Source: Artemia franciscana (taxonomy: Eukaryota; Arthropoda; Branchiopoda; Anostraca; Artemiidae). Taken from it: a stretch of DNA of 64,000 nucleotides. The notes beneath the pieces are model-generated. The model saw only the letters and a program-made list of their open reading frames with translations. It was not told the DNA's origin and did not search any database. The translations under genes and the position numbers were made by a program. Below, piece by piece: positions 32,859-62,500 of this stretch (positions within the stretch are counted from its first letter, which is position 1; every line of letters starts with the position of its first letter). The stretch spans positions 38,423,132 through 38,487,131 of the forward strand of contig NC_088872.1 of the NCBI RefSeq assembly GCF_032884065.1. Reading direction: 5' to 3'.

Positions 32859-33164
32859 GCAGATATAGAGAAGAGATAAAACCCTACTGATTTCGTGCTC
32901 AAGGTATCTGCAATCATTACAACTATCGTCAATTATACATAGATAGATAAGTGTATTTGAAAGCCAAATATACGGCCATGAATACAGTAAAATAACACAA
33001 ACGGAAAGCATAAATAACATAAGCTCTGATCAGCGATCATCACAAAACACTTGAATGAAACACTACGTTAATCTAATAGTACTTAATATTTGAAAATACG
33101 GTCACTGAAAAGAAAATTAATACTTGGAAAAATACATAAATAAAACATTAGATTTACTTTATGA

Positions 33165-37953: not shown

Positions 37954-38436
37954 TTTACGAATTCGATTTGTAAACATTCACAAACCTGGTAAGATCATTG
38001 TATATTGAGGCCAGAAGTAAAAAGGGAAGGTTAAATAAACAAAAAGAGGTCAGGTGACCGTGCTTTGTGCTGGTGTACTGCATCTCATTCTTTGTTTTAC
38101 TTGCAGCTTTTTATCAAAAAGTCAAATCTTCCAAACAGTCACCTGCACTTCTGAAAATGGAAGACCAGATCAGCCGAACGAGAATCAAGGAAAATAAAGT
38201 TTTGGGTCTGAGCTTGCCTCCAACCTTAAAATATGCTATTTACCAGCTTTTACAAGCATAGTTCACTTTTGGACACCTTGGTACGGCATTCCGAGCCTAC
38301 CCCGGGTATTGTGGCTGAACGTGGGAGTTTGCCATCCCATGGGATGAAAAAATGCTAACAGCAAACAGGTTAGCTAACTAAAATAAATTCTTAAATTACG
38401 TCTCAGAAGCTGTCATAAGACTGAACAGAGAGGCCT
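37954..38436. other. Spacer between the two 15-kb copies
   Basis: About 480 bp that has no counterpart before copy A or after the gap. It contains a possible terminal exon (38107-38261). The right edge reads GAGAGGCCTAAACAGAGACA, against TATTGGCCAAAACAGAGACA at the left edge of copy A, so GGCC-AAACAGAGAC is shared at the border. Confidence 0.7.
38107..38261 (+). CDS. Possible terminal coding exon, unrecognised
   Basis: After an acceptor-like TGTTTTACTTGCAG the frame reads FYQKVKSSKQSPALLK, MEDQISRTRIKENKVL, SLPPTLKYAIYQLLQA and TAG, about 51 residues. Codon use looks protein-like, more so than in most frames here, and the polypyrimidine-AG context is good. I do not recognise the family, cannot find an upstream partner exon, and see no polyA signal nearby. 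It may be a real last exon, a retrotransposed fragment or chance. Confidence 0.25.
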
Positions 38437-40123: not shown

Positions 40124-40265
40124 GTACTGGAACACTTGTGGCTGCTGTTGAAACGTGTTCACAGAGGAAAGCTCAAATCATTGGTAAACCGAGCACTTTG
40201 ATGTTTTCTGCTTTGGCCAAGGAGCATAATATTGACCCTAAGCGAGCAATTATGATAGGTGACAG
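40124..40265 (+). CDS. Phosphatase exon 5, copy B
   Basis: Same 142 bp and same flanking splice signals (TAAAAG acceptor, GACAG|GTAATA donor) as 24777-24918. Copy B lacks exons 1-4, so on its own it cannot encode the catalytic nucleophile. It could only be used as an alternative 3' end of the upstream gene, or be an assembly duplicate. Confidence 0.85.
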
Positions 40266-43200
40266 GTAATAATTGGATTATTGTCATCACCAGGGGTATT
40301 TTTTTCTTTTATTTAAATTTGTCCATTATGTAAAACACTAGTATTATTTATTTAAGTTCTACAAATTTAGTTAATTTTTTTTATTAATTTTTTATCAGAA
40401 CTCGAAAATATCGACTACTTTCATACTCTTCTGCTTTGTACAAGGGGTGTAATATTAAACGTAAACTTAAAATTGTAGATGCGATTGGGATTGATGATAT
40501 AACGCAGCATATCAGCTTCATATGCTTCCATAGTCTTTGCTAAGCTTCGTTTCAATTGCCGTTATCTTGGAACGCTGTACAACACTCTTGCTTGGAAACA
40601 ACTCCCTCTACAATAATTACACTATCAGCTCTTCTTCTTCATTTTTATTACACATTTGTTAGTATTCACTTTTTTTAAGCTTTTATGAGTCGGACAGACA
40701 TTTCGGGAGGGATAGGGGTTCAACATCCTCCCCTGGATAAGGCCTCGAATGACAGTGATTTGTTAAAACTTGGGTAATTATGTAAAACAGTTAGACAAGA
40801 TTAAAAAGGAAGAATCCGCCTGGAATTCAGCTCATACACTATAACTAAAAGCCTCACATAAACCTAGTGCTGCTTTGAATGCTTAGGTTAAGATGTCAAA
40901 TTGCCGCTTGTGAATTTAAGATCTAAATCACTTATGTGTCAGTAAACACTTGTGTTCTTTTTATTTATGTATTTTTGGATTGTCTTTCGTCCTAGAAAGT
41001 ATCCGCTCCGCTTTCTTTCTTTTCGCAAAATGCCTACTGAGATATCCCTTGTGACACAAAATTTGAAGGTCATCAATAGTCTTCATATTGCAGATCCTAC
41101 TATAGCTGCACCTAAACTTATAGACAAATACAACCAGAATGTTTCTAACAATGCTTGGAAACAACTCCCTCTACAATAATTACACTGTCATACTCTTCTT
41201 CTTCACCTTTATTACGTGGGCGTGTGTTCTTCTTTTTTTCTTCCTTTTTTCGAATTCTCTTTCGCCCTAGAAAGTATATTGCTCTTTTACCTTTTTTTTT
41301 CGTAGTGCTCCGTTATTTTCTTTTTGTATGAAAATGTGTTTTCAGTGAATAATACTAGTAAAGCGATACTCGTTGCTGTCAATAACTGTAATGGAAAAAG
41401 CTGTTTTAGATGGGATAGCCTTCTGTCTTTGCACTATTTAAGACTGAAGACCCGTGGAATTATATAAAAAAAAATACATTTTTAATTTTTCCTCTGTATT
41501 TTATCGTCTCTAAATTTTCTGTTTAGAGTTTATTTATAGTTCCCTGTTAGAGGGAGCTAACAAATTTTCTGCAAACATCTTCAGCACAAACTCGGACAAA
41601 AATCAACGTTTCTTAACAAAATGCACAATTCCACAACACACATTAAGGTAACTCCTTGAATGATTTTGATTTTTAACTAGTTTCCGTCTTCACTTTCGTA
41701 TTAAGAAATGAAAACATGGAGTCTCTGTTTTAAGTTGGTCACTCACCTAATTTAGTACCCATTGTCCTGCGGCTGTAGTTTCAAGTTGACCATGAAGTGG
41801 GGCGTATTTCTGACATTTATTTGGCTGTTATGACTGATACTGCGCGACCGTAGTTAAAAAGGTTGACCTAAATAATTTCTTAGGCCACACCGCCTTTCCA
41901 TATACAAACATAAGTAGGACAAAATAGGTTGCCTCTCCTGCTTATGTTTATTTGGGTGCTAGTGTATGGTGAACGTTTCCATAATGGATATTATTAAGTT
42001 TTTTTCTTTTGATACAGGTTTCCACAAGTGAAGCCGAAATGTTAGCACTTATCTTATTCTTAGTGGAAAAAAATGTTCATGTTATTTTTCAATGTATTTA
42101 AGTATTATACCCGTTTTTCTATATTTTCATTTCTTTTTTTTGGGAAGGTTTACCTGGTACCTCCAATGCATTTTGTCACTAATTAAAGGCACTAGGTTTA
42201 AAAATGTGTGATCGAATAAGCCAATTTTTTGCAATCTTCTCTATTATATAATTAGGTCGGAAAAAACAAAACTGGAGGCACCTTGCTCTTTACCAATTCT
42301 GTGGCATTGTATAAAATATGACGAGTTTCTTCGATTTGCAATGGTAATTTTTTTTTCGTCATTAAGACTAACAAATTCGACATTTTGGCTGTTAAATTTT
42401 CGAAAAATTCGATATCGGCTGTTAAAACAAACAAAAGAAATATCCGAAGTTATATTATTGATGCTGATGTTCTACGTTTGAAATTCGCTAGACGGCTGGA
42501 TCTATGGACAAGGTCATCAAGTTTCTGCTACTATATTAGATTTTTGCTTGGGAAAAAATATTCCTTTTTAGTCTCTACAAAAACATGCTCATGTCAAAAA
42601 GAGTTGTTTAACTTTGTCTTTGTGCCTGCCTTTCTATGAATGTCCATGCTTGTAACTGTCTTTTTATATAATTCCATATGTCTTTAAATCCAAGCTTGTA
42701 ATGGAATAATGTAATTGGGCTCTTTCAAAGTAAACAAACACATAGTCACTGTATTCATCTGAAACACTAATTATGTGTCCATACAAAAACAAAATAACTA
42801 TCTAGAGGTTTATTATTATAAAAACCTTAATAATAACTCGTGATTATGTACTTGCCAAATTCCCCTTTTCCTCTATTGCCGTTTTTATTCTTTTTTGATT
42901 TACTGGAATGTTTTTGTAATTTAATTGTTAAGTTTACTGATTTGCCTTTATCTTTGATGATTTTGCTTTTTTAATTCCTTTTAATTTTAAGTGTTTGACT
43001 TAATGTATTGTTTTGATTTTTTTTTTCTTAGCTTTTACTGACATATAAAGCGAATTCGGCTCTATAGAGCTTGTGATAGTCTTTTGAAAATAAATATTAT
43101 GTTATCTTATCTAGAGGTATGAAGCTATTTTAGCTTCTGGCAGAATGTTTTAGAAAAATGACGGATGCATCTTCTCAAAGACAAGAGATTTGAACGCTTA

Positions 43201-43720
43201 ATGTGGACACTATTGAATGTGTATAAATGCTCAATTTTCATTGCTGCGAACAAGGAGCATAGAAAGAGAGGATAAAGGGAAGAAGGGGGACCATAGGAAG
43301 GGAGGATAAATACTTGGATTGAAAATGTAATTTCAAGCTTGGATAGTGTCAATGGCAATGGGATCGTAGCTTCGTAGCTTCAAATTGTCGTTGAATGTGC
43401 CGGTAGGATGTGCCGCCGCCACGACTTATATAAGCTAAATATAAAAGCTGTGAAACTTCATGAAGATTATGGGGGTTCTGAGTTATGTTCATTTGTTTGA
43501 ATTACACGAATATTAACTTGTTTCATGGTCACATGTTTTTTACGTGATATATGATAATGATTTAATTTTGTTGATCTGTGATATTAACTGCAAAGATCTT
43601 TGTCAGAACCAAAAGTTTTAGTTTTGAATCAGTTGCTCTTCTTTCATTTATTTTTGCACTGTGCTATTGCGGGTACAGCACTCTAGGTAAGAGTGATGAT
43701 TTTTCTTTCCTTTTTTTTAG

Positions 43721-43913
43721 AGCTAAAAGTGACATTTTGTTTGGTAAAAATGTTGGAATGACAACACTTCTGGTTTATACTGGAGTCAACAGCAAGGAAG
43801 ATGTTGAGATGTGGCAAACGTCATTAGATCCCAGTGATAAGCTGCTTATCCCTGATTACACCCTCGATTCACTTGGTGATCTTTTACCGTTACTGGAAAA
43901 TTTAACTAAATAG
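43721..43913 (+). CDS. Phosphatase exon 6, copy B
   Basis: Identical 193 bp to 28380-28572 including TAG, with the TTTTTTAG acceptor kept and AATAAA at 43991-43996. Together with 40124-40265 it forms a spliceable 3' cassette identical in coding sequence to copy A. Confidence 0.85.
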
Positions 43914-44589
43914 TCTTTAGTCAAATTATAGTCTTTAGCTAAAAGTCTTATGATGCCAAAGCTACAGCATAGTTTTTTTCTCTTTAATCGAATAAATGTT
44001 TCATGTTTAGAAGTTTTCTTTTTTTTATTCAAGTTAGAAAAGATTGATTGACACTAGTGAAGAAAAGACGTTTACAAGTGTCTGTGGGTAGATGGCTTTA
44101 TTAAGTATTCGTTCCCAAGAGCAGCAGTTTCTTGGAATATTCGTATCATACTGAGTAATTCATAGGCAGTATATTTTTGATTGAAGACCATCTACCTCTA
44201 ATGGAAGATCATTTTTTATTAGAGGTCCTCACCAGATTTACCACATATTAGATGGTTTCTCGGCATTATGTCACTAATAATAAGGCAAAATCAGTAAGAT
44301 TGATGAAATTAGTCTAGTGATAAATTGGGCCCAAATTCTGGAAAATATAATTACGAAGCTGGAAAAAAAATGTCAAGAAAGAGCGACAGACAGCGTTGAT
44401 GACGTTTTTTGTTGACAATAGTAGCCCACCAGTTTCCACTGTTGTTGATTCCACCAAGTTACCCATACTCTTTGATGAATTCATCATAGAACATGATTTT
44501 TCATTAGATGTCTTGACAAAAATTGTCTTTTTCCAAAAGATATACTACTACTATTATTGCTAACAACTCAATGCAGCACCAAGCCGCCA

Positions 44590-44945
44590 GAAAAATCAAA
44601 AACAAGTTTTTTTTTCAACTGAAAGTGAGGAGCAACATTAAAACTTAAAACAAACAGAAATTATTATGTTTATGAGGGGGGTTGCCACCTCCTCAACACC
44701 TCGCTCTTTACACTAAATCTTTTAGTACTTTTAAAAAAGCTTTTTATAGTTCTAATTAAACGAATCTTGGGTTTCAGGAGGTGTTCTTTAAGAATTGGTA
44801 CAAAATTGAAACTTTAGCATAAAGAGCGGGGTGTTGAGAGGAAAGGAAAAACCCCCTCATATACCTAATAATTTTTTTTAAGTTTTAATGTTGCTCTTTG
44901 CATTCAGTTAAAAAAAACTCGTTTTTTATTTAATTCCTGATCGTA
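44590..44945. repeat. Foldback-family member, copy B
   Basis: Counterpart of 29270-29640 with a few substitutions (e.g. AGAGCGGGGTG instead of AGAGCGGGTG). Confidence 0.72.
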
Positions 44946-46555
44946 TTTCAATAATGCCAGGAATTCTGGCTCCATCTCCACGAAACAATTCCTCCTCCTC
45001 ACGGATATATCCTCTAGACAATTCAATCCTAGTGAAAATTTAACCCGGAGAATTATCCTTAAGATCTGCATGCGTAAAATAGAGTTGGCAAAGAGAAAGT
45101 AAGATATAAGAAAAATGTCGTGTGGGAATTCTGGCAAGCTCCCCCAGTGCGAAATCTCCCCTGAAAAATTCACTCCCTCCTGGAAAATTAACACCCCGTT
45201 GAAAGTTCTCCCCATGAAAATCCTCCCAGTAGAAAATTTGTCTTCCCGACCCAAAAAATATATGCATACTTCTCAATAACAAATACCATGCGTAAACAAT
45301 GGGCACATTTTATACCTTAAAGATCTTTCCACAGGGGCTATGGGAGAGGGTCAAGTTATCTTTAAAGGAACAGTTATTCGGCCTTTCAACTATGTTCAAC
45401 AAAATGGCTATCTCAGAATTTTGATCAGAAGAATTTGAAAAAAGAGGCCTAGTTGCCTTCCAATATTTTTGGTCATTTAAAAAGGGCACTAGAACTGTTA
45501 ATTTTTCGTCCGAATGAGCCCTCTCCCAATACAATACCCCCTGGATGATGATACAATAACCCCTGAAAAAAACAAATAAACAAATCCGTGATCTGTCTTC
45601 TGGCAAAAAAAAAAAAAAAAAAATCCGCATTTATGAAGGTATTTATGACAGTAGAGTTTTCTGATACGCTGAATCTGGTCGTGTAGTTTTTATGTATATT
45701 TTATCCCTTTTAGCGAGTTTTCCCCCTTTTTTCCTTAATCAGGCTAATTTTCTCATGTTCGTACCCTGTTATGGGTAAAATCAAATTTAATGAAACTTAT
45801 ATATTTAGAATCAGCATTATAAGCCGATCTTGATAAGTCTGTTGGTATTAAAATTCCGTTTTTTTAGAGTCTTGCTTGATATTGAGCCGGGTCGCTCCAT
45901 CCTTACACTTAATTGCTATGAACTGTTTGGTTTTATTACTAGACTGGCTGGCTGAATCTTCCAGCTCTTCAGCAATTCTAACAAGTGCCTCTAAACACGT
46001 AACTCGTTAATTCCTATTTTAATTGTTTCTCCGCTTTCTTTATATTCTCCTTATTTTCAAATGATCTATCTCTCAAATAATCTTTGACAAGCCCCTTCTC
46101 CTCTCTATTTAACATAAAGCAGCAAGGAAAATCCTTTGATTTGAAAAACAAGGAAACAATCCTTTTTTTGCATGGGAGCATCTTTTTTTCTTTTTATGTT
46201 TTTTTTTTTCTCTGCTGCGAGTGAGGCACAAACTGACATCCCCATTTCTGAGGGAAGGTCGCTTTGTACTCCGGTAACTGTCTACTACTAAAATACTATT
46301 GACTACAATGTGACAAAAGCCTATTTCACCTCCGACTCATCGCTGCTTTCTGCTAAATTCAAGACTAACTTTTGACTAAATTCAAGACTTTTGAAAGCGT
46401 TATTTTGAAAAAGTTGTCCCTCGGCCGAGAGCAAAGCATGTGTCGTAATGCTAGGTCAGTATTTTACTATACTTCTTCATAGCAAAAGAAGCTCCTCTAG
46501 GTACTATGCATAACATTTCATACACAAGAAAAATAAAATAGTGCTTAGAGAATTA

Positions 46556-46680
46556 GCTGAGTCAAAATGACTTTACCAATATTTGTATATTGGTAAAGTC
46601 ATTTTGACTCAGCTCAAAATGACTTTTTGACTCAGCTCAAAATAGCAGTCATTTTGACTAAGCTCAAAATGGCAGGCATT
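46556..46680. repeat. TGAGTCAAAATGAC hairpin plus array, copy B
   Basis: The hairpin at 46556-46613 has fully complementary 27-bp arms. The array after it is about 10 bp shorter than in copy A and has GACTAAGCTC in place of GACTCAGCTC. Confidence 0.85.
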
Positions 46681-47700
46681 ATCTGCTCAGTTTGATCTGA
46701 AATACTCTAGCCAAAAAGCAAATTTATTATCTAGGAAGAGAGTCTTATTATATAAAAGCTTGCAATAGTTTGTATTACCCTTCCAAATAAGCTACTGTGG
46801 GGTGTGCAAAAGGCTGCTGCATTTGTTTACGCGAGTATTGCTCCACAGAGACACGCTCATGGCCTTAATAGTGGTTTTGACATCACTTTGCCAATTCCGT
46901 GTCTGCATCCTTCATGATTAAATTAAAAACAAAAAGTTGTTTTTTCAAATGAGCGATTTTAAGATTTAAAGCGACCAGAAACTATAATATGTAGAGCGCA
47001 ATAACTATTACAGATTGGTTGTTGTAAGTGCCTTTTCTTAATATTTACCTGACTGACTTTCAAATATATGAACCAAAGGTTTTGTTATTTGAAGGAAATT
47101 TGGAAAGAGAAAAACTCTATCAATCTGAAAGCATTGTGGGAAGAACATTAAGCTCTTCATCATACTGCCCTCATATTGACCTTGAATCACACTTGAAGCA
47201 CTGAAACAACGATAGTAAAACTTTAGTATAAAACTTTATACTAGTATAAAACTTTAGCATTTGAAAGAGTTTGTTGATATAAGTACGATTGCTGTGTGTT
47301 TTAATGTTACATTACGGGTCATCCTCAATACAACAGGGCAGTTCTCCCGTCAACCCGTTGCTTTTTACGCTAAAAATTTAACTATTGTATAGCAATGCGC
47401 TATATACTTTTCAAATAAAATAGACGATATGAAATAGGCTGTTGCCCCTGTCAAAACTCAGTACTTACACCTAAGTTCAAGTTTTGTAACTATCAAGTGG
47501 ATTCTTGACTGTTTCTAATGAGAAGCAACTTCTGAAAAGCTGCTTCTCTGGCTGTTGTCCCATATTTGATTGACTTAGCTGGGTGATGATTCACTGTGGT
47601 TCCTATTTTACTATTCCAAATAAGAAAAAAGGTCCATAGGCTTTTCCTGTGTATAATAAAAAAAGTAAAGAATACAGAATTAGACTTTACAGCCCCTACC

Positions 47701-47961
47701 GGCGGTGCTGATCTCCGTTTCTTGGCCCTTCAGCCAGGAAGTGCAATGAGGGGTTGGGGGCCAACCATCCTGTGCTTTTTCACACCCTTTCTGTTTACCT
47801 TCCCCATATTTCTCCAGGTACCCATTTAGAGCTGGGTCGACTCTGGCTGAGCTTACAGAATCACACCACTGACCCCCGTCGCAAACAAAATAATTGGGAA
47901 CACTAGGATTCGAACCATCTTCCTCTCTGGCAAAGGATCCTGTATTGTGTAATGTATATAA
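47701..47961 (-). repeat. tRNA-derived SINE, minus strand, copy B
   Basis: Counterpart of 32380-32640, apparently identical in the B-box and body. Confidence 0.62.
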
Positions 47962-48485
47962 TTATATGCCTATTAGCCATACAATCTTTTCGGGTAGGCA
48001 TAAGAATGATTGGTTTTTTCAACTCTGTAGATAATTTTGTTATGGCCACGAAAAATTACAGACTAGTCTCAATGCAGCTTATGAAGATTTACTCTCACAG
48101 GGGGAAAAAGATCATGGCCACTAAAAATAAAAGAGACAAACTGATTCACTGAGACTAACTTCAGTTAGTCTCAAGTGAATGCAGATATAGAGAAGAGATA
48201 AAACCCTACTGATTTCGTGCTCAAGGTATCTGCAATCATTACAACTATCGTCAATTATACATAGATAGATAAGTGTATTTGAAAGCCAAATATACGGCCA
48301 TGAATACAGTAAAATAACACAAACGGAAGGCATAAATAACATAAGCTCTGATCAGCGATCATCACAAAACACTTGAATGAAACACTACGTTAATCTAATA
48401 GTACTTAATATTTGAAAATACGGTCACTGAAAAGAAAATTAATACTTGGAAAAATACATAAATAAAATATTAGATTTACTTTATG

Positions 48486-51097
48486 ATGCAATTCTTTTAT
48501 TTTATTTTTTTGTTTTTATGTAACAAAATTTCCAGATGCTTTGCTATTCTACAAATAAACTTAGGGGTCGTACTAGTTAAGACACCTGGAGGTACCGACC
48601 CATTTTTTCCAAACATCCTTTCCCTTATCGTAGAGAGCTGGCTTAAGCAATGGCACCGGCTTAAGCAATGCACTAAATAATTCTCTTTAGCTCTACAAAG
48701 TGGGCAACTATATCTGTCTTCATTGGCCCATATTTCTTTAGCACATAATTTAAATCTTGCACTAATTGGCAGGCAGTTAGTCTTGAGCTACATCCACAAC
48801 GACAAATATCTAGCTGGCAAATTCAGCTTAAAGTAGAACTCCTGCCCATAAGCCCCCTTAACATCCTTATAAAACTTTAATGTTTCTGATTTTTTTTTAT
48901 CTCTTCACTCCATTTTTGGATCATTTAATTCTCTAGTACTATCTTAATCTCATTCTCCCAATTTGTACTTCCGTTGGTCCTCTACCTTCATTCAGAACAA
49001 AAGAAAACTTGATTTTGTCTAAAATGTCTTTTATTTTTAGTGGCCATGATCTTTTTTCCCCTGTGAGAGTAAATCTTCATAAGCTGCATTGAGACTAGTC
49101 TGTAATTTTTCGTGGCCATATAACTAGATCGCCATTTAAAAACTAGGAATGAATTGTTCTGTGCAGCCCAAACAATCTCTTGAAGTACACTTATTGAATA
49201 TTCTCTAGCTGATCCGCTTTTTCATGCCCCCAAATCTCTACTCTGTAACGTAGAATGGGAATTATTCTCGATGAAAAGACCCTTTTATGAAACGACAAAC
49301 TTTTTATTCCCTTTACATTATTACGGAAAATTGTAAACATTGCTGCTCTTCCACGATTTAACGTTTCCTTTATATGTGAATTCCATCTTCCATTACTTTG
49401 ATTAATACGTCCAAGATAATTTTAAGCACAACTTGTATCTCCACCTCCTTAAACCAAAATTTACTTTCTCATTTATCATTCCTCGTGTTAAATACAACTA
49501 CTTTTGATTTATGAACATTTACCAGATGGCACTTCATCTTTAGATGATCATCTGTCAAATCCAGTAGCTTATGTAAATTATCTGCTGAATTTGCCACTAG
49601 AGCACTGTTATCCGCAAACAACAGCACTGGGACGTTTCTAATACCTAATCTCACTGTTTTTTGTTAAAAATTCAACAATGACTTTAATAAAAAGACCAAA
49701 AAGTCGAGGTGACAAGGCACTTCCATGCTTTACTCATTTCTTAACTATAGAAGGCCTCGAAAGACCCGACCCACATACTACGAATATTGCACTAGTTTCA
49801 AAATACATATTTACAACCAAACAAATGGGCTATCTGATAGGCTTTCTGTTATTATCATTTGATTTCTTTTTGACCAGAAATCTTTTGTATTACCTAGATT
49901 GAAAACTTGTTCCAACTCCTCCTGTTCTTCTCTATGCTTCTGTCACTTTTTTTTTCAACCTTTTATATTCTCTTTTTTTCTTTAAATCTTTGTAATATTT
50001 CCTGATTTTCCTCAGATGAAGAGTAATTTCTAACTGCCTCTGATAAATCTTACACGCATTGTCAAAGAAATTTACATTCATTTAACCTTTTACACTTATG
50101 AGCACAATCATAAATAATTGAACCAAATTCACTCAGAGTCATATCAACATCCATTGATGACTTGTACATAATTTCAAGCCTTTCAATTACCTCAGGCCTT
50201 TAGTTCATTTCCCAACAACTCCAGCTCCTCACTACTCCACTCGGTTTTTAAAGGCTCCACATAATAATTTTTTTTCCAAATAATCATTACTCTTCCTCAC
50301 TACATTTGTTTTTCCCACAATTCCTGTTTTAAGGCTCAGTTTACTTTCCACTGGAAGATGATCTGACCCTACGATACTTGGAACCTCAACGCACACTGTA
50401 AATTTCACAAGCTCGAGGCTAACCCATACATAATCAATTGTGCTCTGACAAACAGGTAAACTCACCCATCTCTGCATCCTTACAAAATCGTCCCTTTCCA
50501 GCCACAAGAGCACTAAGAGAGCATAACTCTAGAAGCCTCTTACTCCAACAATTAACCTTACTTTTAAAGTCCTTGAAAAGGATTCCTGTTGATACGAGAA
50601 GAAGACAAATTGGGAGGGTTCTTTATAGGGAAGGATGGTAAGGCAAGATGATGCTGGGAAAGAAATGTAGAGTAGAGGGAGTCTGAGAGAGGAGTCTCTA
50701 GAAGCCTCTTACTCAAACAATTAACCTTACTTTTACAGTCCTTGCTACTTCTAGATGTCTTGCAAATATTCCAAGCATTAAACTTTTGCCCTTTGTAAGA
50801 GGAATTTTAGCCCATACAATGTTTTCGAGCTTGCTCGGAATACGTAAATAATAGTGTAAACTACCCTGCTTAATTAACACTAAAATACCACCATATTATT
50901 TGATATTTCCAACCACTTTTTGAATAACTTTTTCTACTGAACAACCTCTGAAAGTTGGCACTGAATCTTCACTGTGCCACGTCTCAATTAAAGCAATAGC
51001 ATCCACATCATGTCAATCTTGTAATAAATGGTTTACTTTATTTTTTACACCTTGGATATTCAATGTAACTATACGCAAAGGGTGGATATGACCGTAG
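48486..51097 (-). mobile_element. Degenerate LINE, minus strand, copy B
   Basis: Counterpart of 33165-35790 with the same endonuclease, RT and zinc-segment remnants. Small deletions relative to copy A occur near 49418 and 49656. The inverted internal segment at 48041-48133 again mirrors the LINE interior (about 49028-49120). Confidence 0.83.
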
Positions 51098-51667
51098 TAT
51101 CCCTATTCACTTGGCGATAAGACATCATGTACTGGTAGGACATAAGGCGAGACAGGATCATCACTATGTGGGAACGAAAGACGATAGTAATCGCTAGTAT
51201 ATGCAGGAGCCAGGCCCTTTGATGGACCTTTATAGTTAATTTCTCTTCTCACAACATTTCAAACGTCGCAACGGTTCTTTTTCTTACAAATTTTCTCACT
51301 CTTTTTTCATTTTTGTTCGTAGCTTCTGGAGATTTTTTATTTTTTCAATAGACCTTGATGCGCTTTTGGAGCGTTGAGGTGACGGATGTTTCATATTGAG
51401 CTCCACCACCGTTTTGGTATCGCGCTCAGTAGTGATACTGGTATTCGGTGTCGCTATATAGTTTTTACTTTTTAGGTCATTTATAGTTGTAAACTCTGAT
51501 TATAGCGTCATTTATAATCTTCTATGCGGAAATGTAGTTTTTTTTTTGTAGCAGAACTGATTTTATTTGAATGTTGTGTATTGTTAATCAAAGAAGCAAG
51601 AAGATGTGAAGTTCTACTTATTAAATTTATCTTTGATAAAGGTTATTTCCTTTGGTGGCCGACATTT

Positions 51668-51817
51668 AACCCCCCCCCCCAGAAAATACTCCCCAGAAAA
51701 TACCCCTGCAGAAAATAAGCCCTCCGAAAAATACCCCCCCTGTGGAAAACATCCCCCGGAAAATACACCCTGGAAATATATCCTGAAGAAAATACCCACC
51801 CCCTTCCCTTGGAAAAT
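51668..51817. repeat. CCCC-GAAAATA tandem tract, copy B
   Basis: Counterpart of 36361-36510 with minor C-run changes (ACCCCCCCTGTGG against ACCCCCTCTGTGG). Confidence 0.72.
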
Positions 51818-53260
51818 AAGGTTTTGAAGATTTGAGAATTTTATTTGAGTTTCGTTTTTTTTCCGTAGGGAAAAGGAATTTTGGTACTTGTCTATGGTAG
51901 GCCACTCATCCAAGTTTACGCTGTGTAAAACTGCAGAACGAACCGGTTTCTTCATTAGTTTTGTTCAGTTTAGCATGGGACAAGACAAAGACAAGTAACA
52001 GAATAGATGGGAAATATATAATTTGGGCTGTATATTTGCACATGAGGGTGCACATGTTCGTTTTGAGTTTTTTTTATTTATTAATGATGATTTGTGGTAT
52101 TTTACACTTGGAAGACAAGTAAAACTAATTCGTAGAATTTGAAAACGTTTTCGTCTGTAAAAACATGAATATTAAAATTTGATGTTTCCCAAAGCCAACT
52201 ATCTTTTTAAAAGAAAGCTAAACCTTAAATTTGTTGGTGCCATATGTTTTTCGCCTACATTTTTTCTTTTTTTTTCTAATTTGGCAAAAATCACAGCCCA
52301 CTGCAGCAAAACATTGCAGAAGTTCATATGGATGTGTTTTCAGCAAAATTGGAATTGCATTTTTTTTTTGTAAGTTTCTTAAGATACTTATGATGTCTAA
52401 ATTTCTCTTTTTTACTTTCTTTAGCACTTTTCAACGAAACAAAAACAAAACAAAACTCAAATAAAATTTTCAAATTTGAAAACTTATTTTCCTTGGGAGG
52501 GGGTATTTACAAACATATTTTGTTTACATTTAATTGTAAACTCAGGTGGGCAGTTTAATCAGCGGAGTTCCTGGAATATGGAAGAAACAACAAAAAGGAC
52601 CAGAAGAAACAATCCCGTCATACCAGTTGGTGAACTGAAATTCTATTTTATACAGTTAAATTTCGTTTAGGGAAAAAAGCTTAAAAGTAAATAGAAGTAA
52701 TAAAGAAATAAAGGTGTCTGGGATTGAAAAGAACCATCAGCTTTTTCTGTGTTAGTCGATAAAAAATCAGTCGTATTCTCTCGAAGTGCCACGGATGTCC
52801 AAAGGGGAACAGTGCAGGACTACATGAAAAAGTTGAGAAGTTGAATATCCTTCGACAAAGTGTGGACATGTGTTTCTTTACACTCCCTTGCAACATATGA
52901 TAAATATTTACAGATAAACAAGAAAAATGACTAAAAACTTACTTTAAAGCGATAGCAGATATGTATTTCGACTCTACTCCCCTAGTAGCACGTAAATTTG
53001 CATACATTTATGTCATTATTAAGAGCATAAAAGTTCCGGATAACTTGATATGCAAAGGCAGTGGAGATAGTGGAGAAAGTGTAGGAAAGATTGGTACCGT
53101 GGTTTTATGAATTGCCTTGAAAATCTATCAGTAAGAACGTCAGAAGGTACAAGCTTATGACAGACAAATGCTTTCAACCGTCATTGTGGAGGAGCTTTCT
53201 CTAACAACCTGGAGCAAGGTCTAGACAAACACAATTTCATACCACAAGACATTTGAATTG

Positions 53261-53360
53261 NNNNNNNNNNNNNNNNNNNNNNNNNNNNNNNNNNNNNNNN
53301 NNNNNNNNNNNNNNNNNNNNNNNNNNNNNNNNNNNNNNNNNNNNNNNNNNNNNNNNNNNN
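53261..53360. other. Assembly gap, 100 N
   Basis: Exactly 100 N, the conventional placeholder for a gap of unknown size. It truncates copy B of the large repeat. Sequence after it does not continue copy A (37954 on), so order, distance and even linkage across it are unproven. Frames running through it are meaningless. Confidence 0.98.
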
Positions 53361-53545: not shown

Positions 53546-55001
53546 CATAAATTGTAACTTAATTTTTCTTCTTTTACATCCAAGTGAAAAATAGATCAAC
53601 ATAAAAAAAAAAAATGACAAAGATACGTATTGTACGATTGATATCAACTTAATACATAATAGCTATCTAATGTCCAAAGCATCTACATTTCAAGAGCGCT
53701 ATTTGAAGTTTTCTAAGTAATTGGTGTGGAATATGTGGAGAAAGTGATATTAAGGGATAGTGTCAATCCTGGCAGTAAAATTGGATTTATTGCAAAAAAA
53801 ATTCAGATAAATTTTTGACCTTTTTTTTTGCCATTTTGGACAGGATCTAGATACACTACTAGCATGGAGACCCAACAGTTTAATTCCAGCGCCACGAAGT
53901 CTTCTGCATCCATACACGTTTTGATGAATATTAATTTTTAGTGGTTTTTATACTGTGCATGTAATTGTCTATGGTAAGTGGTCAAGTAACATTATGTTAA
54001 GTATAACCTTTGCGCTTAAAGCACCTTATTTAACGTTATGCTGACGTAAAAATCCATAAAACCTTCATTATCATCGTCTGAAATCAACACGGTCTTAATA
54101 AGCAGATTTTTCAAATTAAAATGTGGACTGGAAATGGTGATTCAAGCTCTGATCAAGCGTAGAAAGGCTTTTTCGAAAAAGTTTAATTTTCAAACATAAA
54201 ACTTATGTAAAACTCGAGTCTACTTGGCACTGCCTACGTTATGGATAATGTTTGCTCCTTCAGATTACATAACATGACACACAGTCTTAAGTTATGCCGG
54301 TGTGAAAGATTTTGCGGTGTAATGTGAAAACATCATTACTTTTTTTGTTATGTTGAGCTTACTCCACTGAGGTTTTATTGGAGAAATAAAAGGACAGCCT
54401 TGTACTATAGAAAGGAACTGTGCTGTTCTACGACACAACAGATTGTCCTGTATCGTGTTTTAATAGAAGGAAACGAAGAGGAAGAAGCATTAACGGTCAT
54501 ATAATAATTTTTGAACTTATATGTTCGGAGAACTTTATCCAAATTTAGATTCATCCCTGAAAAACTTTTGATCTACAAAAAAAATCAAGTAGCTTTTGTC
54601 TGGTGTGTTCACAGTGAAATCGATAGTATTTATAAAAGAGATAATATTTTGAAAAGAATAGGACTGTAAACCTCAAAGGCTTTAAACACATAACATTTAT
54701 TTGTTTTCATGTGGCTTATTATTTCCTTTTTTAGTTAGCATTACACTCCTCTTCGTTTTGATTATTGCACTTTGGTTTTCCACTTTATTTCTTCTATTCT
54801 TTACGTTTTTCCTTGAATTTTTTTTTTCACATTAATTTATTTCTTTCCCCTTAGTCTTGTTTTTGTTGATCCTCTTATCAAGTCATGTTTTTTTAGCTTC
54901 CTTCACTTTGTTATTGATATTATTCCTAATAATAAGCTTTTAATGTAGGTTATATTATTAGCTTGTATTTCAATATGTATATGGTTCAGTGTTTACATGG
55001 G

Positions 55002-55004
<3 letters not shown>
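53546..55004. other. Unassigned AT-rich sequence
   Basis: No exon, RNA gene or repeat recognised in 1.46 kb between the LINE scrap and the (TA)n tract. It probably includes intron or intergenic DNA of the BEACH-gene scaffold and perhaps the 5' flank of the Penelope-like element. Confidence 0.5.
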
Positions 55005-55071
<67 letters not shown>

Positions 55072-55150
55072 TATATATATATATAATATTATATATATAT
55101 ATAATATTAAATATATATATATAATATATATATATTATATATATATTTAT
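55005..55150. repeat. (TA)n microsatellite, 5' border of Penelope-like element
   Basis: Uninterrupted TA repeat to about 55067, then TA blocks broken by TTA, AATATT and TTAAAT to about 55150. The ORF of the retroelement starts 16 bp further on. Confidence 0.95.
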
Positions 55151-55165
55151 TTTCAATAACTTTTT

Positions 55166-57928
55166 ATGCAACAAAACACAAATATTAGCCTCGGAACTCG
55201 GAACGATTTTTTGAAAGTTAGTAAGTGTAAAAGTCGTTGTTTTCTTTGCCAAGATCATTTTGTCCCACGGACTTCTGTTAAAAGTACATTGTATAATAAA
55301 AATTTTGCATGCAAGTTACGTGGTAATGTTAATTGTAGAACAACCAATGTAATTTACCTATTAGAATGTAATAAATGCTGCCTACAATATGTGGGAGAAA
55401 CAACTAATAATATATATAAAAGATTTTCTGGACATAAGACAACAGTTAATAATAAAAAAACTAATAACTATCTAGTTCAACATTGTAATAATGGTAAATG
55501 TTCCATATCAGATATAACTGTCACAATTTTAGAAAATTTAGAATTAGAAAATTTAAAAAAAGAAGAGAAGAATAATAGACTACGTAAACAGGAGGATTTC
55601 TGGATCCATACTCTTGGTACAGCTTATCCTTTTGGGCTAAATGATCGTGTAGCAAAATATGGTGACATGTCTCATGTTGTTGTTAAATGTATTGATGGTT
55701 TTATGGACCATCCTTCTTTTACTTGTCCTACTAAACGTAAAAAACGATCGAGAGGACATAGGAAAAATAATAGAAAAAATGAATTAGATGTACATATGCT
55801 TTCTATAGATCTATGCCAGCTACTTGAATCTAGGGGTATGATTTCTGTAATAAAGTGTCTAAATAATTTATCCAAGAGGAATTTAATCAAACTTTTCTGG
55901 ATTGTTAAGAATAATACAGCTCTTGATTATAATTTTAAAGTAATATGTGATACAATTTGCATTCTAACTAAAACGAAATTTATTTCAAAAAAGAAAAAGT
56001 TCGATAAGATTAGTAATAAGGATAACAGATTATATTTACTTATTAATTTTACTTGTAAGCAGATTGAAGATATTAATTTACCAGAAATTTCAAATCAGCG
56101 GCATGTGAAACAGGCCCTTCCTAGTAATTTAAATTATAATGATAGTCCAGTTTTAACTTATAAATTTTCAAAAACTATTGGGCAAATTATTTTTAATTAT
56201 AATTTAATACTAAAAAAACTAGATAGTGATATAAATTGGAAACCGGTTTGTAATTGTAAGCAACTTGGCCCATTTGTAAATCCTACTTACAAACATGTTA
56301 TAACAGGGGACTTGTCAATAATAAAGCAAGATGATCTTCAAATTATAATGAATAAAGGGGCTAATTTCCGTCTTTCTCATCATTTGAAACCATCGAGTGT
56401 TCTTGATGGCTTGGAAAATGATTTTGATTTATTTATTGATAAGTGGTGTAAGAAAGAGAATAAAAATAAAGAGAGTTTTCAAAGTTGGAAGAATTTAATT
56501 ATTAGTAGAGTAAGAAATAAAATATATTCTAACTTAAAAAATAGTAACACTAAATCATTATTTTATAATGCGAAGATTAAACAAGCAATTGCTAATCTAA
56601 AGAATGAATTTGTAATTGTGCCAGTGGATAAAGCTAATAATAATTTTGCCATAATTTGTCAGAAGCTGTATTGTGATATCTCAAAAAGGGAGTTATGCAC
56701 AACTATCGTTTACGAAAAGGTAAATATAGAGGATGAGAATTTAATTGAAAAGACTGAAGAAATACTTTTTAAAAATTTTAATATTAAAATAAATGACAAT
56801 GATAAAAAGTTCCCTTTCCTATATTGGACTGTAAAATTTCATAAGAATCCCCCTAAACCACGGTTTATTGCTGGAGCTGCTAAATGTCCAACCCGCATTG
56901 CTGCTACTGACCTCTCTTTAATTTTAAAGGAAATTGTAAATAAACTTAAAACCTATTGTTCTGGTATTAAAAAATTTTCGAATTTTAATCCATATTGGAG
57001 TGTTAATAATTCACTGCAGGTGATAGATTCTTTAACAATGGTTTCAGCTAAAAGAATTGAGTCTTTCGATTTTGCGACAATGTATACTAATTTATCACTT
57101 AATGTAGTGTTTGATAATTTAAAAACTGTTATAAAGAAATCTTTCCTCTTATCTAGTAAAAGGTTCTTAAAAATAGACATTTATAATAAAAAAGCTATAT
57201 GGACAAACTGCTTTAATACTACAGTTAACTTGAGATGTTACAGCTTGGATATGATTTTTGAGTTATTGGAATTTGTTTTATACAATACTTATATAAGATT
57301 TGGGGGTGATTTGTACAAGCAAATTATGGGAATTCCCATGGGGGGGGGGAATGCCAGCCCATTTATAGCTGACTTGTTTTTAAGTCAACTAGAATATAAA
57401 TATATGATGGATAAGAATAATCCAATTAATTTAAAACATGCTTTGTCAAATAATAAAAGATATTTAGATGATATTTTGGTCTTAAATTGTAAGGATTTCA
57501 TTGATATTTCTAAAAATATATATCCATCAGAGCTTATTCTTGAGCCTAGTCATGGCGCTGGTCATGAAGATCATTTCTTAGATTTAAATATTAATATTTG
57601 TGATAATAATAAATTAAGTTTTAAAATGTATAATAAAACGGATGATTTTGATTTTGAAGTGATTAGTTTCCCATTCCCTGAAAGTAATATACACTCAAAT
57701 ATCACATATTCAGCGTTTTCCTCACAGTTACTTCGTTATGCAAGGATTTGTAGTAATTATATTGATTTTAAAAATAGATGTAAAATCTTAAGCCAAAAAT
57801 TGATATCAAGAGGTTTTTCTGCAAATAAATTAACTTGGCAATTTAAAAAATTTAGTTTTCATTATAACGAACTTTTAAATAAATATCAAAAGAATTATCT
57901 AGAAATACTTAAAGAAATTTTTAACTAA
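55166..57928 (+). CDS. GIY-YIG / reverse transcriptase polyprotein of Penelope-like element
   Basis: 920 residues, uninterrupted. Residues 21-28 hold a cysteine cluster (C21, C25, C28). Residues 61-146 are a GIY-YIG nuclease: NVIYLLECNKCCLQYVGET (Y64, Y75-V-G), R86 after the second strand, and E133 in RKQEDFWIHTLGTAYPFGLN. Basic KRKKRSRGHRKNNRK near 191-205 may bind nucleic acid or be a nuclear signal. RT follows from about 470: D635 in FDFATMYTNL (motif A), MGIPMGGGNASP from 721 (motif B), D768-D769 in RYLDDILVL (motif C), and a FLDLNINICDN segment. All catalytic aspartates are present. The ORF is strongly A/T-biased, unlike the host exons. It presumably nicks target DNA and primes reverse transcription there. 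A run of nine G inside motif B is a possible sequencing risk, yet the frame is open. Confidence 0.92.
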   Translation: MQQNTNISLGTRNDFLKVSKCKSRCFLCQDHFVPRTSVKSTLYNKNFACKLRGNVNCRTTNVIYLLECNKCCLQYVGETTNNIYKRFSGHKTTVNNKKTNNYLVQHCNNGKCSISDITVTILENLELENLKKEEKNNRLRKQEDFWIHTLGTAYPFGLNDRVAKYGDMSHVVVKCIDGFMDHPSFTCPTKRKKRSRGHRKNNRKNELDVHMLSIDLCQLLESRGMISVIKCLNNLSKRNLIKLFWIVKNNTALDYNFKVICDTICILTKTKFISKKKKFDKISNKDNRLYLLINFTCKQIEDINLPEISNQRHVKQALPSNLNYNDSPVLTYKFSKTIGQIIFNYNLILKKLDSDINWKPVCNCKQLGPFVNPTYKHVITGDLSIIKQDDLQIIMNKGANFRLSHHLKPSSVLDGLENDFDLFIDKWCKKENKNKESFQSWKNLIISRVRNKIYSNLKNSNTKSLFYNAKIKQAIANLKNEFVIVPVDKANNNFAIICQKLYCDISKRELCTTIVYEKVNIEDENLIEKTEEILFKNFNIKINDNDKKFPFLYWTVKFHKNPPKPRFIAGAAKCPTRIAATDLSLILKEIVNKLKTYCSGIKKFSNFNPYWSVNNSLQVIDSLTMVSAKRIESFDFATMYTNLSLNVVFDNLKTVIKKSFLLSSKRFLKIDIYNKKAIWTNCFNTTVNLRCYSLDMIFELLEFVLYNTYIRFGGDLYKQIMGIPMGGGNASPFIADLFLSQLEYKYMMDKNNPINLKHALSNNKRYLDDILVLNCKDFIDISKNIYPSELILEPSHGAGHEDHFLDLNINICDNNKLSFKMYNKTDDFDFEVISFPFPESNIHSNITYSAFSSQLLRYARICSNYIDFKNRCKILSQKLISRGFSANKLTWQFKKFSFHYNELLNKYQKNYLEILKEIFN

Positions 57929-58452
57929 TTTCGGAGGTTCGAGAAATGTTGTCACAGCGCCATTTATTTTGAATTGTGTTTCTAATTGAGCGGATTTTCT
58001 AAAAAATTAGCCACATGGTAAAGATGAATTCTATAATTGTTTAGTTCATTCAGGTTTTTTGCAATGTGTTAATATTTGTGATTTGGTAAAATTTATAATA
58101 TTTAGTTTACCTATTGTTGCTAAAAGGAGGGATATATTAACAGGATAAGCTTGTTTTTGGTTTTACTTGGTTGTTTTACATTTGTTTTTTTTTTTCATAG
58201 GCATGTATTTTGGGGGTGATACCTGACGCGGGGATGCCATGGATATTCTGTGGTAGCCACAACACTGTGCTGGGTAGAGAATTTAGAGTGGCGAAACCCT
58301 ATATAGGCCAGTGTATTCTCCTGATGAGCCCTTATGTTGGGTGTTGCCTCTGAATTATTTGTCTATATTATTTTTTCTATTGTTTGGTAAATGACGACTT
58401 ATACTTATTGACGACATGACTGCCTGTCCATGGATTATTCTTTATGGTTGAT
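57929..58452 (+). other. 3' untranslated region of Penelope-like element
   Basis: Non-coding. Around 58290-58345 it has GGCGAAACCC followed by TATATAGG and, 30 bp later, CTCCTGATGAGCCC. These are the two core strings of a hammerhead ribozyme, as known from Penelope-like elements, but in permuted order. I could not fold a complete ribozyme. Confidence 0.55.
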
Positions 58453-58576
58453 TGTGTGTGGCTATGCTGTTTGACCTATGTGATTGTATGGATGAGTAGG
58501 GTTAAGGCCTCATTCAAGTGCTGGTCTATATTAATCACTAATTTAGGAAAACAGTCTTCCTTTTCTCCTTCTGTCT

Positions 58577-58654
<78 letters not shown>

Positions 58655-58692
58655 TGTGTGTTTGTGCTGTAGCATTGGTGATTTCTCTTTTC

Positions 58693-58774
<82 letters not shown>

Positions 58775-58946
58775 GAAAAGAGAAATCACCAGTGCAACAG
58801 CAAAAACACATGAAAAAAAAAGACAAAAGGAGAAAAGGAAGACTGTTTTCCTACATTAGTGATTAATATAGATCAGCACTTGAATGAGGCCTTCACCCTA
58901 CTCATCCATACAATCACATAGGTCAAACAGCTTAACCATACACATG
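58453..58946. repeat. Inverted duplication (snap-back) at the 3' end of the retroelement
   Basis: Left arm 58453-58694 and right arm 58772-58946 are reverse complements: GCTGTTTGACCTATGTGATT, CCTCATTCAAGTGCTG and GGTGATTTCTCTTTTCAT each recur inverted. The centre is (TA)n, about 58695-58771. The left arm carries about 75 T (58579-58653) where the right arm has only nine A. Both-strand ORFs here are microsatellite artefacts. Confidence 0.9.
58579..58653. repeat. Poly-T tract of about 75
   Basis: Homopolymer inside the left arm of the inverted duplication. Its partner in the right arm is A9, so it has expanded in one arm, or the assembled length is unreliable. Confidence 0.9.
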
Positions 58947-59194
58947 AATTTTATAATTCATACCAATGAATTTTGGAACAAGGTAATGGTTTGGTAAAAT
59001 TCTCCAGGCTTGGATTGGTCTCCAGACAGTTTTTAAGGGGATTTGAATGCCTCTTAATGAGAAGAGATATTCCCTTTTTGTCTCCCTCCATTTTGTTGGT
59101 GTGCCCTTAATTTGATTTGTGAATTAAAATGAAATTCGCTGTTTTTAAGTGATGAAGTTTTTATGTTGTTCCTCACTGTGCTGCCTGATTTCAG

Positions 59195-59556
59195 ATTTGA
59201 CAAGTGGATACTCGATGTAAGTGAAGGCCCTTGTCGCATGCGCAAGAAACTTATCAGAAATGAATTGTTTTATCATCACTACCCATACAGACCAGAATTG
59301 GAATCTGGAGACCGCCAAGCCAAGTACAAAGTGGCTATTAGTCTGGATAGCAAACTGCATCATCATCTATATGAAACTCAGCATAGGTCTCTACGTTTTG
59401 CTGAAACGGGACAACCAAAGGAAAAACTCGCCTGTGATAATGAATCAAATGATGAGATAAATCAAAATAGTTGCGATTGTTCGTGGACTACGGCAGCTGA
59501 AATCAAACCTTCGCGAGAAGACTCTACAGAAATATTTGAAGAAAAAAATGATCTTG
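59195..59556 (+). CDS. WDFY3/blue cheese-like BEACH protein, internal exon
   Basis: Acceptor CTGATTTCAG|A, donor CTTG|GTAAGA, about 120 residues. It opens FDKWILDVSEGPCRMRKK, then LIRNELFYHHYPYRPEL and KYKVAISLDSKLHHHLY, and continues into a low-complexity acidic part ending EEKNDL. The TEGPCRMRKK..RN..FY.HYPYRPE block is, from memory, the segment preceding the PH-BEACH module in WDFY3/Alfy (Drosophila blue cheese), a huge PtdIns3P-binding scaffold for selective autophagy of aggregates. The phase joins exactly to 62831 (G|GA). The rest of the gene is outside this window or across the gap. Confidence 0.75.
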
Positions 59557-62500
59557 GTAAGACAAAACATTCTATCTATTTTGTCTTCTTTTATTTTTAC
59601 TAATGACAGCTAGCAATAAAGGGTTTTTTTTTTCTTCCAAGAATAAACCAGTGATATTGATAACAAAAGTTAAAATGTTAGCACCTTACCAGCAGTTAGG
59701 TAAGTAATCAGGGACTAATTGTTAATGAAACCAACCAAGGACAGCATAAAAGCATATTTTATGAGGTAGAGAAACGAAGTAATGGGAAACCTTGAATTTG
59801 TAACTTATGCCTATGAAGTATGGCACCACCAATATTCGTGTGCGCAATTTTCTCGTGTGCGCAACTTTGTACTTTCTAATGCTGTATCTTCTTAAACATT
59901 GATGTGCATAAGTTCAATCTAAGCTGGAGAGGAAGGGGTGTATTTGAAGACGTTCCAAAAATAAAAACACTATTGTGGTCAAAACAAAAACAAGAGCTAA
60001 GAGCTCATATGGCACTTGTGACGAGGCGAGAAGAGCTAAGAGCCAAGAGATCATATGGTATGAACTCTAACAAAATTCTATGAATCAATAGATTGATTTA
60101 AAAAGGAAAATAAGAGGCTTAATGCCGGTCAGGATTTAAAATAAGAGCTCTGAGTCACGATGTCCTTCTAAATATCAAAATTAATTAAGATCCGATCACC
60201 CACTCGTAAGTTATAAATACCTAATTTTTTATAATTTTTCCTTTCCTTTTAGCCCCCCCAGATGGTCGAATCTGGGAAAACGACTTTATCAAGTCAAATT
60301 GTGCAGCTCCCTGACACGCCTATCAATTTTCATCGTCCTAGCACGTCCAGAAGCACCAAACTCGCCAAATCACTGAACCCCTCCCCCAACTCCCCCAAAG
60401 AGAGTGAATCCAGTACGATTCTGTCAATCACGTATCAAGGACATTTGTTTATTCTATCCACCAAGCTTCATCCCGATTCCTACACTCCAAGTGTTTTTCC
60501 AAGATTTCCCCCTCCAACTCCCCCCAATGTCAAACGATCTGGTCGGGATTTGAAATAAGAGCTCTGAGACATGAATTCTTTCTAAAAATCAAATTTCATT
60601 AAGATCCGATCATCTATTCGTAAGATAAAAATACCCCAATTTTCACGTTTTCCAAGAATTCCGGTTTCCCCCTCCAACTCCCCCCAACGTCACAGGATCT
60701 GGTCGGAATTTAAAATAAGAACTTTAAAGCACAAGATCCTTCTAAATATCAAATTTCATTAAGATCTGGTCACCCTTTCGTAAGTGACAAATACCTCAAT
60801 TTTCAAAATTACCCCCCCCCCCCCCTCCAATTCCACCCAAGAGAGCAGATCCGGTCCGGTTATGTCAGTCACGTATCTTAGACAGGTTTTTATTCTTCCC
60901 ATCCAGTTTCATCCTGATCTCACCGCTTTAAGTATTTTCTAAGATTTCCGGTCCCCCCGCCCCCCAACTGCCCCCCCCCCAATTACGCTTGATCTGGTTG
61001 AGATTTAAAATAAGAGATCTGAGTTACGAGGTCCTTCTAAATATGAAGTTTCATGAAGATCCGATCACTCCTTCGTAAGTTAAAAATACGTCATTTTTTC
61101 TTATTTTTCAGAATTAACCCCCCCCCCCCCCAATAGATCGGATCCATTCCAATTATGTAAATCACGTATGTAAGACTTATGCTTATTTTTCCCACCAAGT
61201 TTCATCTCGATCCCTCCAATCTAAGCGTTTTTAGGTTCTCCATGATTTTAGGTTCCCCCACCCCAAACTTCCCCCAACGTCACCAGATCCAGTCAGGATT
61301 TAAAATAAGAGCTTTGAGACACGATATCCTTCTAAATATCAAATTTCATTGAGATCCGATAACCCGTTCGTAAGTTAAAAATACCTCATTTTTTCTAATT
61401 TTTCAGAATTAACCCCTCTCCCAACTACCCCAAAGAGAGCGGATCCGTTCCGGTTATGTCAATCATGTATCTAGGACTCGTGATTATTTTTTCCACCAAG
61501 TTTCATCCCGATCCCTCCACTCTAAGTGTTTTTCAAGTTTTAGGTTTCCCTCTCCTAACTCCCCCCCCCCCCAATCTCACCAGATCTGGTCGGGTTTAAA
61601 ATAAGAGCTCTGAGCCACGATATCCTTCTAAATATCAAATTTCATTGAGATCCCATCACCTGTTGGTAAGTTAAAAATACCTCATTTTTTCTAATTTTTC
61701 AGAAATACCCCCCCCCCCCCCCCAACTATCCCAAAGAGAGTGGATCCTTTCCGTTTATGTCAATCATGTATCTATCACTTGTGTTCATTTTTCCACCAAG
61801 TTTCATCCCGATCCCTCCACTCTAAGTGTTTTCCAAGTTTTAGGTTTCCCCCTCCCAACTCCCCCCCCCCCCAATGTCACCAGATCCGGTCGGAATTTAA
61901 AATAAGAGCTCTAAGACACGATATCCTTCTAAACGTCAAATTTCATTGAAATCCGATCACCCGTTCGTAAGTTAAAAATACCTCATTTTTTCTAATTTTT
62001 CAGAATTACCCCCCCCCCCCCCCCCCCACTACCCCAAAGAGAGTGGATCCGTTCCGATTATGTCAATCATGTATCTGGGACTTGTGCTTATTTTTCCCAT
62101 CAAGTTTCATCTCGATCCCTCCACTCTAAGTGTTTTCCAAGATTTTAGGTTTCCCCCGTCCAACTCCCCTCAGCGTCATCAGATCCGGTCGGGATTTAAA
62201 ACAAGAGCTCTGAGACACAATATCATTCCAAACATCAAATTTCATTAAGATCCCATCACCCATTCATAAGTTAAAAATACTTCATTTTTTCTATTTTTTC
62301 CGAATTAACCGGCCCCCCCACTTCCCCCCCCCCAGATGGTCAAATTGGGAAAATGACTATTTCTAATTTAAGCTGGTCCCGTCCCTGATACGCCTGCCAA
62401 ATTTCATCGTCCTAGCTTACCTGGAAGTGCCTAAAGTAGCAAAACCGGGACCGACAGACAGACAGACAGACAGACCGACAGAATTGGCGATTGCTATATG

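Follow-up and report, generated by a model that had tools for sequence, protein, structure and literature searches.

To our knowledge, the steps by which Penelope-like elements (PLEs) insert have been little studied. Permuted PLEs, the Naiad and Chlamys types, are said to have been described by Craig et al. 2021 as spread in invertebrates, and Naiad reportedly carries, immediately ahead of its GIY-YIG domain, a group of cysteines of the form CX2-5CXXC. Both names are in use for annotation, with PLE/Chlamys and PLE/Naiad among the listed categories in PMC10941475 and PLE/Chlamys in PMC12477816. Behind a full-length PLE insertion there is a second copy in tandem, usually 5'-truncated, and the arrangement forms a pseudo-LTR (PMC8969392). 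PAc, a PLE of the lizard Anolis, cleaves AT-rich DNA, and its reverse transcription begins at an internal RNA site that is homologous to the cleaved DNA (PMC11167929). For Artemia, the word Penelope is absent from the main text of two genome descriptions (PMC11492255 among them), an open-literature search combining Artemia, Penelope, and transposable elements gave a sole match, on penaeid shrimp, and no report of a PLE inserting into (TA)n was among the matches listed from the open literature.

Here, we describe a PLE in a 64-kb window of the Artemia franciscana genome (the whole stretch analysed, 64,000 nucleotides, 34.66% GC), which we confidently read as a member, truncated at its 5' end, of a young, permuted, Naiad-type family, and for that family we propose a (TA)n insertion cycle. 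The kind of element is already known, the family being a member of the permuted PLEs, and the copy itself is ordinary; the interesting part is the (TA)n target rule.

The window copy encodes a single 920-codon frame on the forward strand (55166-57928) with no internal stops, as originally claimed. From the stop-codon frequency of the window, ~1.7e-20 open runs of that length are expected, and the second-longest ORF in the window has 245 aa. Pfam returned one domain over the cut-off, GIY-YIG (PF01541, residues 62-137, E 7.5e-6), whose end we extended to residue ~160 (55349-55645, forward strand) from a conserved PFGxND stretch in the alignment. Upstream of the nuclease lies the Cys cluster C21-X3-C25-X2-C28 (55226-55249, forward strand), which is kept in all four sequences that reach this region (the window protein and its relatives L011, L006, and L014; a further relative, L013, falls short of it). 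The same four sequences all keep Y64, C68, C71, Y75, G77, R86, H90, and E143. The original prediction of a complete nuclease core thus held for Y64, Y75, and R86 but not for E133, which reads E, E, T, and A in the four; E133 was rejected as the catalytic Glu, and E143 (in RKQEDFWI) is E in 4/4.

RVT_1 gave no Pfam match to the window protein at E up to 1, and the reverse transcriptase (RT) assignment comes from alignment with relatives that do match RVT_1, namely L070 above the curated cut-off and L006, L014, and L013 below it. Aligned with these, the RT core spans residues ~482-812 (56609-57601, forward strand; the limits are ours), and D635, D768, and D769 are kept in all five of the window protein, L011, L006, L014, and L013. 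Other routes yielded little: PDB sequence searches found no match at E <0.2 (profile A1 reached a maturase RT at E 0.41), an NCBIfam search gave nothing useful, and an AlphaFold model built from five sequences (mean pLDDT 43, pTM 0.27) was set aside. An RT and a GIY-YIG nuclease share one ORF, as in Penelope-like elements. Their order, with GIY-YIG at residues 62-137 and RT from ~482, is permuted; in Penelope/Poseidon and Neptune the nuclease lies C-terminal to the RT, whereas the sole GIY-YIG stretch of the window protein is N-terminal. The order claimed at the outset, GIY-YIG before a Penelope-type RT, is therefore borne out by Pfam and alignment together.

Relatives outside the window came from a pattern scan of a prokaryote genome collection, which returned 19 loci, four of which (L006, L011, L013, and L014) encode a relative by tblastn. 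All four are in metagenome bins and presumably represent contaminating eukaryotic DNA. One of them, L011, comes from a bin with the label GSL (which we read as Great Salt Lake); its ORF has 919 aa and the permuted domain order, and it matches the window at 99.03% DNA identity over 55145-58653. Its differing 5' flank was considered as a sign of a different insertion site and this was rejected, since that flank is the family leader. The permuted order is also that of L006 (997 aa) and L014 (904 aa), whose overall identities to the window protein are 33% and 32%, respectively, and L013 is cut by a contig end before the nuclease. The overall identity of these three to the window protein is 32-42%; over the RT stretch it is 40.1% (L006), 37.6% (L014), and 43.1% (L013). 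No relative was found in scans of IMG/VR, in plasmids at the protein level, or in phages, the last searched for near-identical DNA only.

Further copies came from the Artemia franciscana genome itself (1,270,528,402 bases in 6468 contigs). When the best 50 of 6778 first-look candidates were scored, all 50 covered the protein from residue 1 to residue 919 or 920, with 98-100% amino-acid identity, and 49 of the 50 had stop-free frames; 30 of these were fetched and, with L011, gave 31 ORFs for comparison. Both the scored and the fetched sets are the best scorers, biased to long, similar copies, so these figures do not describe the average copy, and some copies are tandem neighbours (e.g., L030/L031 and L044/L045) and hence not independent. 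Pairwise ORF divergence among the 31 was 0-1.16% (median 0.69%), with 73 of 465 pairs below 0.2% and six ORFs (L040-L045) identical. As judged from these sequences, the family is young and recently amplified, because the 31 ORFs diverge by at most 1.16%, which agrees with the recency originally proposed.

The same ORFs bear on whether the reading frame was under selection. Variants common to at least two copies comprised 27 synonymous and 17 non-synonymous changes, and singletons comprised 29 synonymous and 35 non-synonymous changes and one stop, set against a random expectation of ~28% synonymous, 69% non-synonymous, and 3% stops (~29% synonymous among non-stop changes). The synonymous excess, which copies scored at the protein level favour by their choice, suggests selection on the frame during the spread of the family. 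Co-option of the copy or the family as a host gene would likewise leave one long intact frame and shared variants that lean synonymous, but we find this scarcely credible given at least 50 dispersed near-identical copies, and given that the private codon changes of the window copy (3 synonymous, 7 non-synonymous, plus a 3-nt insertion) stand near the random ratio.

Other PLEs are present in the same genome. A GIY-YIG search in which 150 of 1778 candidates were scored listed matches over the cut-off, several of them in frames of 869-898 aa and some ~2.8-2.9 kb apart. One locus, L070, of which 2.2 kb were read, resembles the window element in having PLE RT motifs and a GIY-YIG domain, but differs in its opposite domain order, with RT first and GIY-YIG last (residues 660-724 of 733), and in its 21% overall identity to the window protein, compared with the 32-42% of L006, L014, and L013. 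The genome therefore holds both domain orders.

A full unit of the permuted family measures ~3.75-3.8 kb: a leader of ~240 bp is followed by a single ORF and then by a structured 3' region. Units occur mostly in head-to-tail partial tandems, with tandem pairs spaced 3.75-3.82 kb. Among the 30 fetched copies, 25 have the full ~240-bp leader with a unit fragment directly before it, and in 8 the 3' end ...TTTCTCTTTTCAT runs into a further leader (GATATTATTCC or GATATTACTCC); in two others the locus holds no tail (L036 meets a gap and L029 stops short of the usual 3' end). Together with the 5' truncation at 18 of 20 sampled junction sites described below, these are the pseudo-LTR-type partial tandems and truncations characteristic of Penelope-like elements. 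In the window copy, the 3' untranslated part (57929-58694, forward strand) includes a long hairpin (58197-58366) and a poly-T run, and the fold of 58196-58380 has a z-score of -3.88, with none of 200 shuffles equally stable.

A hammerhead in the pseudo-LTR, which we take as frequent among PLEs and not as defining, was sought with Rfam at E up to 1, and none was found in 54000-60000 (where two low-complexity miRNA matches were the sole returns) or in L006, L011, L013, and L014. In a descriptor scan, a degenerate type II order is visible at 58290-58330 of the window; the scan gave this order with 3 bp both here and in L011, whereas L014 has a better core.

The window copy itself (L020) occupies 55145-58694 on the forward strand (3,550 bp), with borders set by the match to L011 and by comparison with the 30 copies of its own genome. 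Its 5' border lies 21 nt ahead of the ATG, directly after a TA-rich stretch, and its 3' border reads ...TTTCTCTTTTCAT before (TA)n. The copy had been thought whole, and this does not stand: it has nothing of the ~240-bp leader, although the leader is full in 25 of the 30 fetched copies and partial in three (L024, L026, and L035), with ~12 nt left in L038. It is also solo, with no tandem unit adjoining. L066, an internally deleted copy, begins at the same base. The shared start might reflect RNA processing at the 5' end, although a pair of cases is too few to say more.

Its RT motifs had been described as complete, which is right for the three Asp residues, but one motif reads IPMGGGNASP where all four relatives have IPMGGNASP. 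The extra Gly (residue 726 in the alignment) comes from a 10-G run (57340-57349, forward strand) in place of the 7 G found in 29/29 other fetched copies and in L011. That it is unique to this copy was ruled out by 116 exact occurrences of the 10-G form genome-wide, a count that takes in the window copy (reversed control 0). Recurrence, inheritance, or an assembly error would each account for the change, and with 116 occurrences it is no proof that the window copy is dead.

Whether the window copy is nonetheless a currently active source, as its possible mobility would have it, can be judged from the same comparison. Its frame is intact, its catalytic residues are conserved, and it might have daughters among the 116 copies of the 10-G form. 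It nevertheless lacks a leader, carries the extra Gly in an RT motif, has 11 private substitutions as well as the insertion (7 G to 10 G) against the other 30 ORFs, and its nearest ORF, L011, is 0.69% away while other copies are identical among themselves. Being 5'-truncated, solo, and altered in an RT motif, it is a poor candidate, and we consider activity of this particular copy very improbable as far as its sequence tells. Wholeness was rejected on the missing leader, activity less firmly, on divergence and private changes; the family, by contrast, may still move. Overall, the observations in the original prediction proved largely right, and its interpretation is partly supported.

Only two TA tracts of at least 12 units occur in the 64-kb window, and the pair brackets the element, one (55003-55067) in the TA-rich 5' flank that runs to 55144 and the other (58695-58772) at the element's 3' end. 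Beyond the latter, an inverted, more diverged fragment of the family 3' end (58773-58944, reverse strand) faces the copy tail to tail, and the arms 58453-58595 and 58802-58944 are 91% complementary.

The 3' junction recurs through the family. Among 20 fetched copies with a terminal 3' end, 19 read TCAT-GATAT and the window copy reads TCAT-TATAT; a TA run of at least 14 letters (counted from that T) follows at 15 of the 20, window copy included, and the remaining five have no TA run of 14 letters. The exact junction TTTCTCTTTTCAT-GATATATATATATAT occurs at 2,099 places in the genome (1085 + 1014; reversed control 0). To view both ends of such insertions, 20 junction sites were taken from the first 21 listed, all on contig C1, with one near another left out; they were selected by TA at the 3' end. 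Eighteen of the 20 are 5'-truncated, with lengths from 130 to 3126 bp, one (L061) is at a gap, and one (L063) is a full unit.

At the unit boundary, GATAT/(AT)n is the trace that an internal start like that of PAc would leave, and from it we propose a cycle of cutting and annealing, in which insertion probably primes at (TA)n via annealing to an internal GAUAU. The element RNA would be translated; the GIY-YIG domain would cut AT-rich DNA, preferably (TA)n; a strand of the cut (TA)n would anneal to the internal GAUAU in the RNA, at the leader start of the next tandem unit; the RT would copy toward the RNA 5' end, mostly stopping early; and the cDNA end would be joined to the DNA across the cut, in many cases at TA. 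The sequences themselves establish the domain order, the near-identical copies, the tandem units, the GATAT/(AT)n 3' junction, and the frequency of 5' truncation; the enzymatic steps, the priming by annealing, and any continuing activity are inferred.

The 5' ends of the sampled sites weigh this cycle against a different origin of the 3' (TA)n, in which it is made during insertion instead of being the target, with the RT slipping on the AUAU of the RNA and adding TA repeats. Telomerase, a relative of the PLE RT, adds repeats. Pure (TA)n lies directly at the 5' end in just 8 of the 19 gap-free sites, compared with TA runs at 15 of the 20 terminal 3' ends above, and 11 of the 19 have no pure TA tract there; likewise, in 9 of the 19 the 300 nt upstream of the 5' end contain no six-unit TA tract. 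Since 5' flanks are so often without TA, some of it could arise during insertion. In the other 10 of the 19 those 300 nt do hold a tract of at least 6 units, a share that far exceeds the 1.0% of window positions, a local and not a genome-wide background. Where TA flanks the 5' end (8 sites), the element itself starts with TA or AT in 7, letters that BLAST takes into the element when it sets the border. Furthermore, the insert of L066 is flanked on either side by (TA)n plus a 26-nt sequence. A target-site duplication including the tract would produce this, and the TA is on the outer side of the duplicated flank, where a pre-existing tract would put it; 25 nt of unexplained sequence separate the duplicated flank from the element 5' end. 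A script found no convincing target-site duplications among the 21 copies it covered. A pre-existing target is favoured by L066 and by those 5' ends that TA flanks, but the 11 of 19 that lack pure TA would allow both processes; TA synthesis as the source of the 3' runs is unlikely, if far from negligible.

Returning to (TA)n as the target, that a permuted PLE inserts there by annealing to a unit-boundary GAUAU, on the internal-initiation logic of the Anolis PLE with its C-terminal nuclease, is a tentative claim to which we give a little less than even weight. If true, the priming rule would belong to the RT and the RNA, independent of nuclease position, and TA might also be added in the manner of telomerase. 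The family has about two thousand exact 3' junctions at a simple target ((TA)n beside GATAT) in an easily reared animal, and so lends itself to the questions of how an RT related to telomerase picks its start site and whether nuclease position matters.

Compared with known systems, the family matches the Naiad type, to which we assign it on architecture: Naiad and Chlamys, like the family here, place GIY-YIG ahead of the RT, and Naiad, like it, has a Cys cluster upstream of the nuclease (here C21, C25, and C28). The Penelope/Poseidon group, represented by PAc, shares with the family a PLE RT, a GIY-YIG domain, pseudo-LTR tandem units, and an AT-rich target (PMC11167929). PAc has a hammerhead, whereas Rfam finds none in the family here, and PAc differs further in its C-terminal nuclease and in a start within an AC-rich stem loop (PMC11167929). 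PAc nevertheless resembles the cycle proposed here in the internal start of reverse transcription at a target-homologous site.

Among the relatives of the window's Penelope-like element (PLE) that are encoded by metagenome-bin loci, inferred to be eukaryotic contamination, L013 carries, on the minus strand and in a single frame (L013:1172-3808), a PLE reverse transcriptase (RT) fused at its C-terminal side to a ubiquitin hydrolase domain (E 5.6e-27 for Pfam UCH) in which both the Cys- and His-box motifs were found. L013, the single contig with this fusion, ends before the nuclease; its retroelement may encode a deubiquitinase of its own. The permuted PLEs of L014 and L006, with the GIY-YIG nuclease ahead of the RT, are each preceded by an upstream ORF1 (L014:226-870 and L006:4129-4584), and these are ~28-30% alike; the sole domain match, to the L1 ORF1 trimer domain in L014, was weak and below the cut-off. 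In L014, ORF1 is duplicated (second copy, L014:5499-6050) inside a 780-bp direct repeat (93%), which is perhaps a pseudo-LTR.

Near the window's copy, an open stretch, FDKWILDVSEGPCRMRKKLIRNELFYHHYPYRPEL (window 59163-59480), is reminiscent of a WDFY3/blue cheese-type exon, and if this reading is right, the PLE copy may lie inside an intron; Pfam and PDB searches with the stretch gave no match. A C-rich satellite (period ~295-301 bp) occupies window 60092-62333 and 19804-21689, with up to 88.7% similarity between the two, and further near-palindromes, ~70-90% complementary, lie at 5676-6090, 13299-13672, 29279-29617, and 44593-44931. The window also holds a 14.9-kb direct repeat of 98.7% identity (23097-37952 vs 38432-53260), the second copy of which runs right up to a 100-N gap (53261-53360). 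Either the segment was duplicated recently or two haplotypes were left uncollapsed in the assembly. Elsewhere in the same assembly, five GIY-YIG matches on one strand, spaced ~2.9 kb apart (G000:C17:23289952-23301756), probably belong to another PLE family, with its copies arrayed in tandem.

Rfam returned no hammerhead for either of two hammerhead-like motifs, at window 58290-58330 and L014:5159-5222. The latter, between ORF2 and the second ORF1, has a hammerhead-like core (CTGAAGA-GCCC ... GGGC-GAAAC) with a script-detected 5-bp stem II, and the former, inside the strongly folded 3' part of the PLE copy, reads GGC-GAAA ... CTGATGA-GCC, the order of type II hammerheads, with a 3-bp stem.
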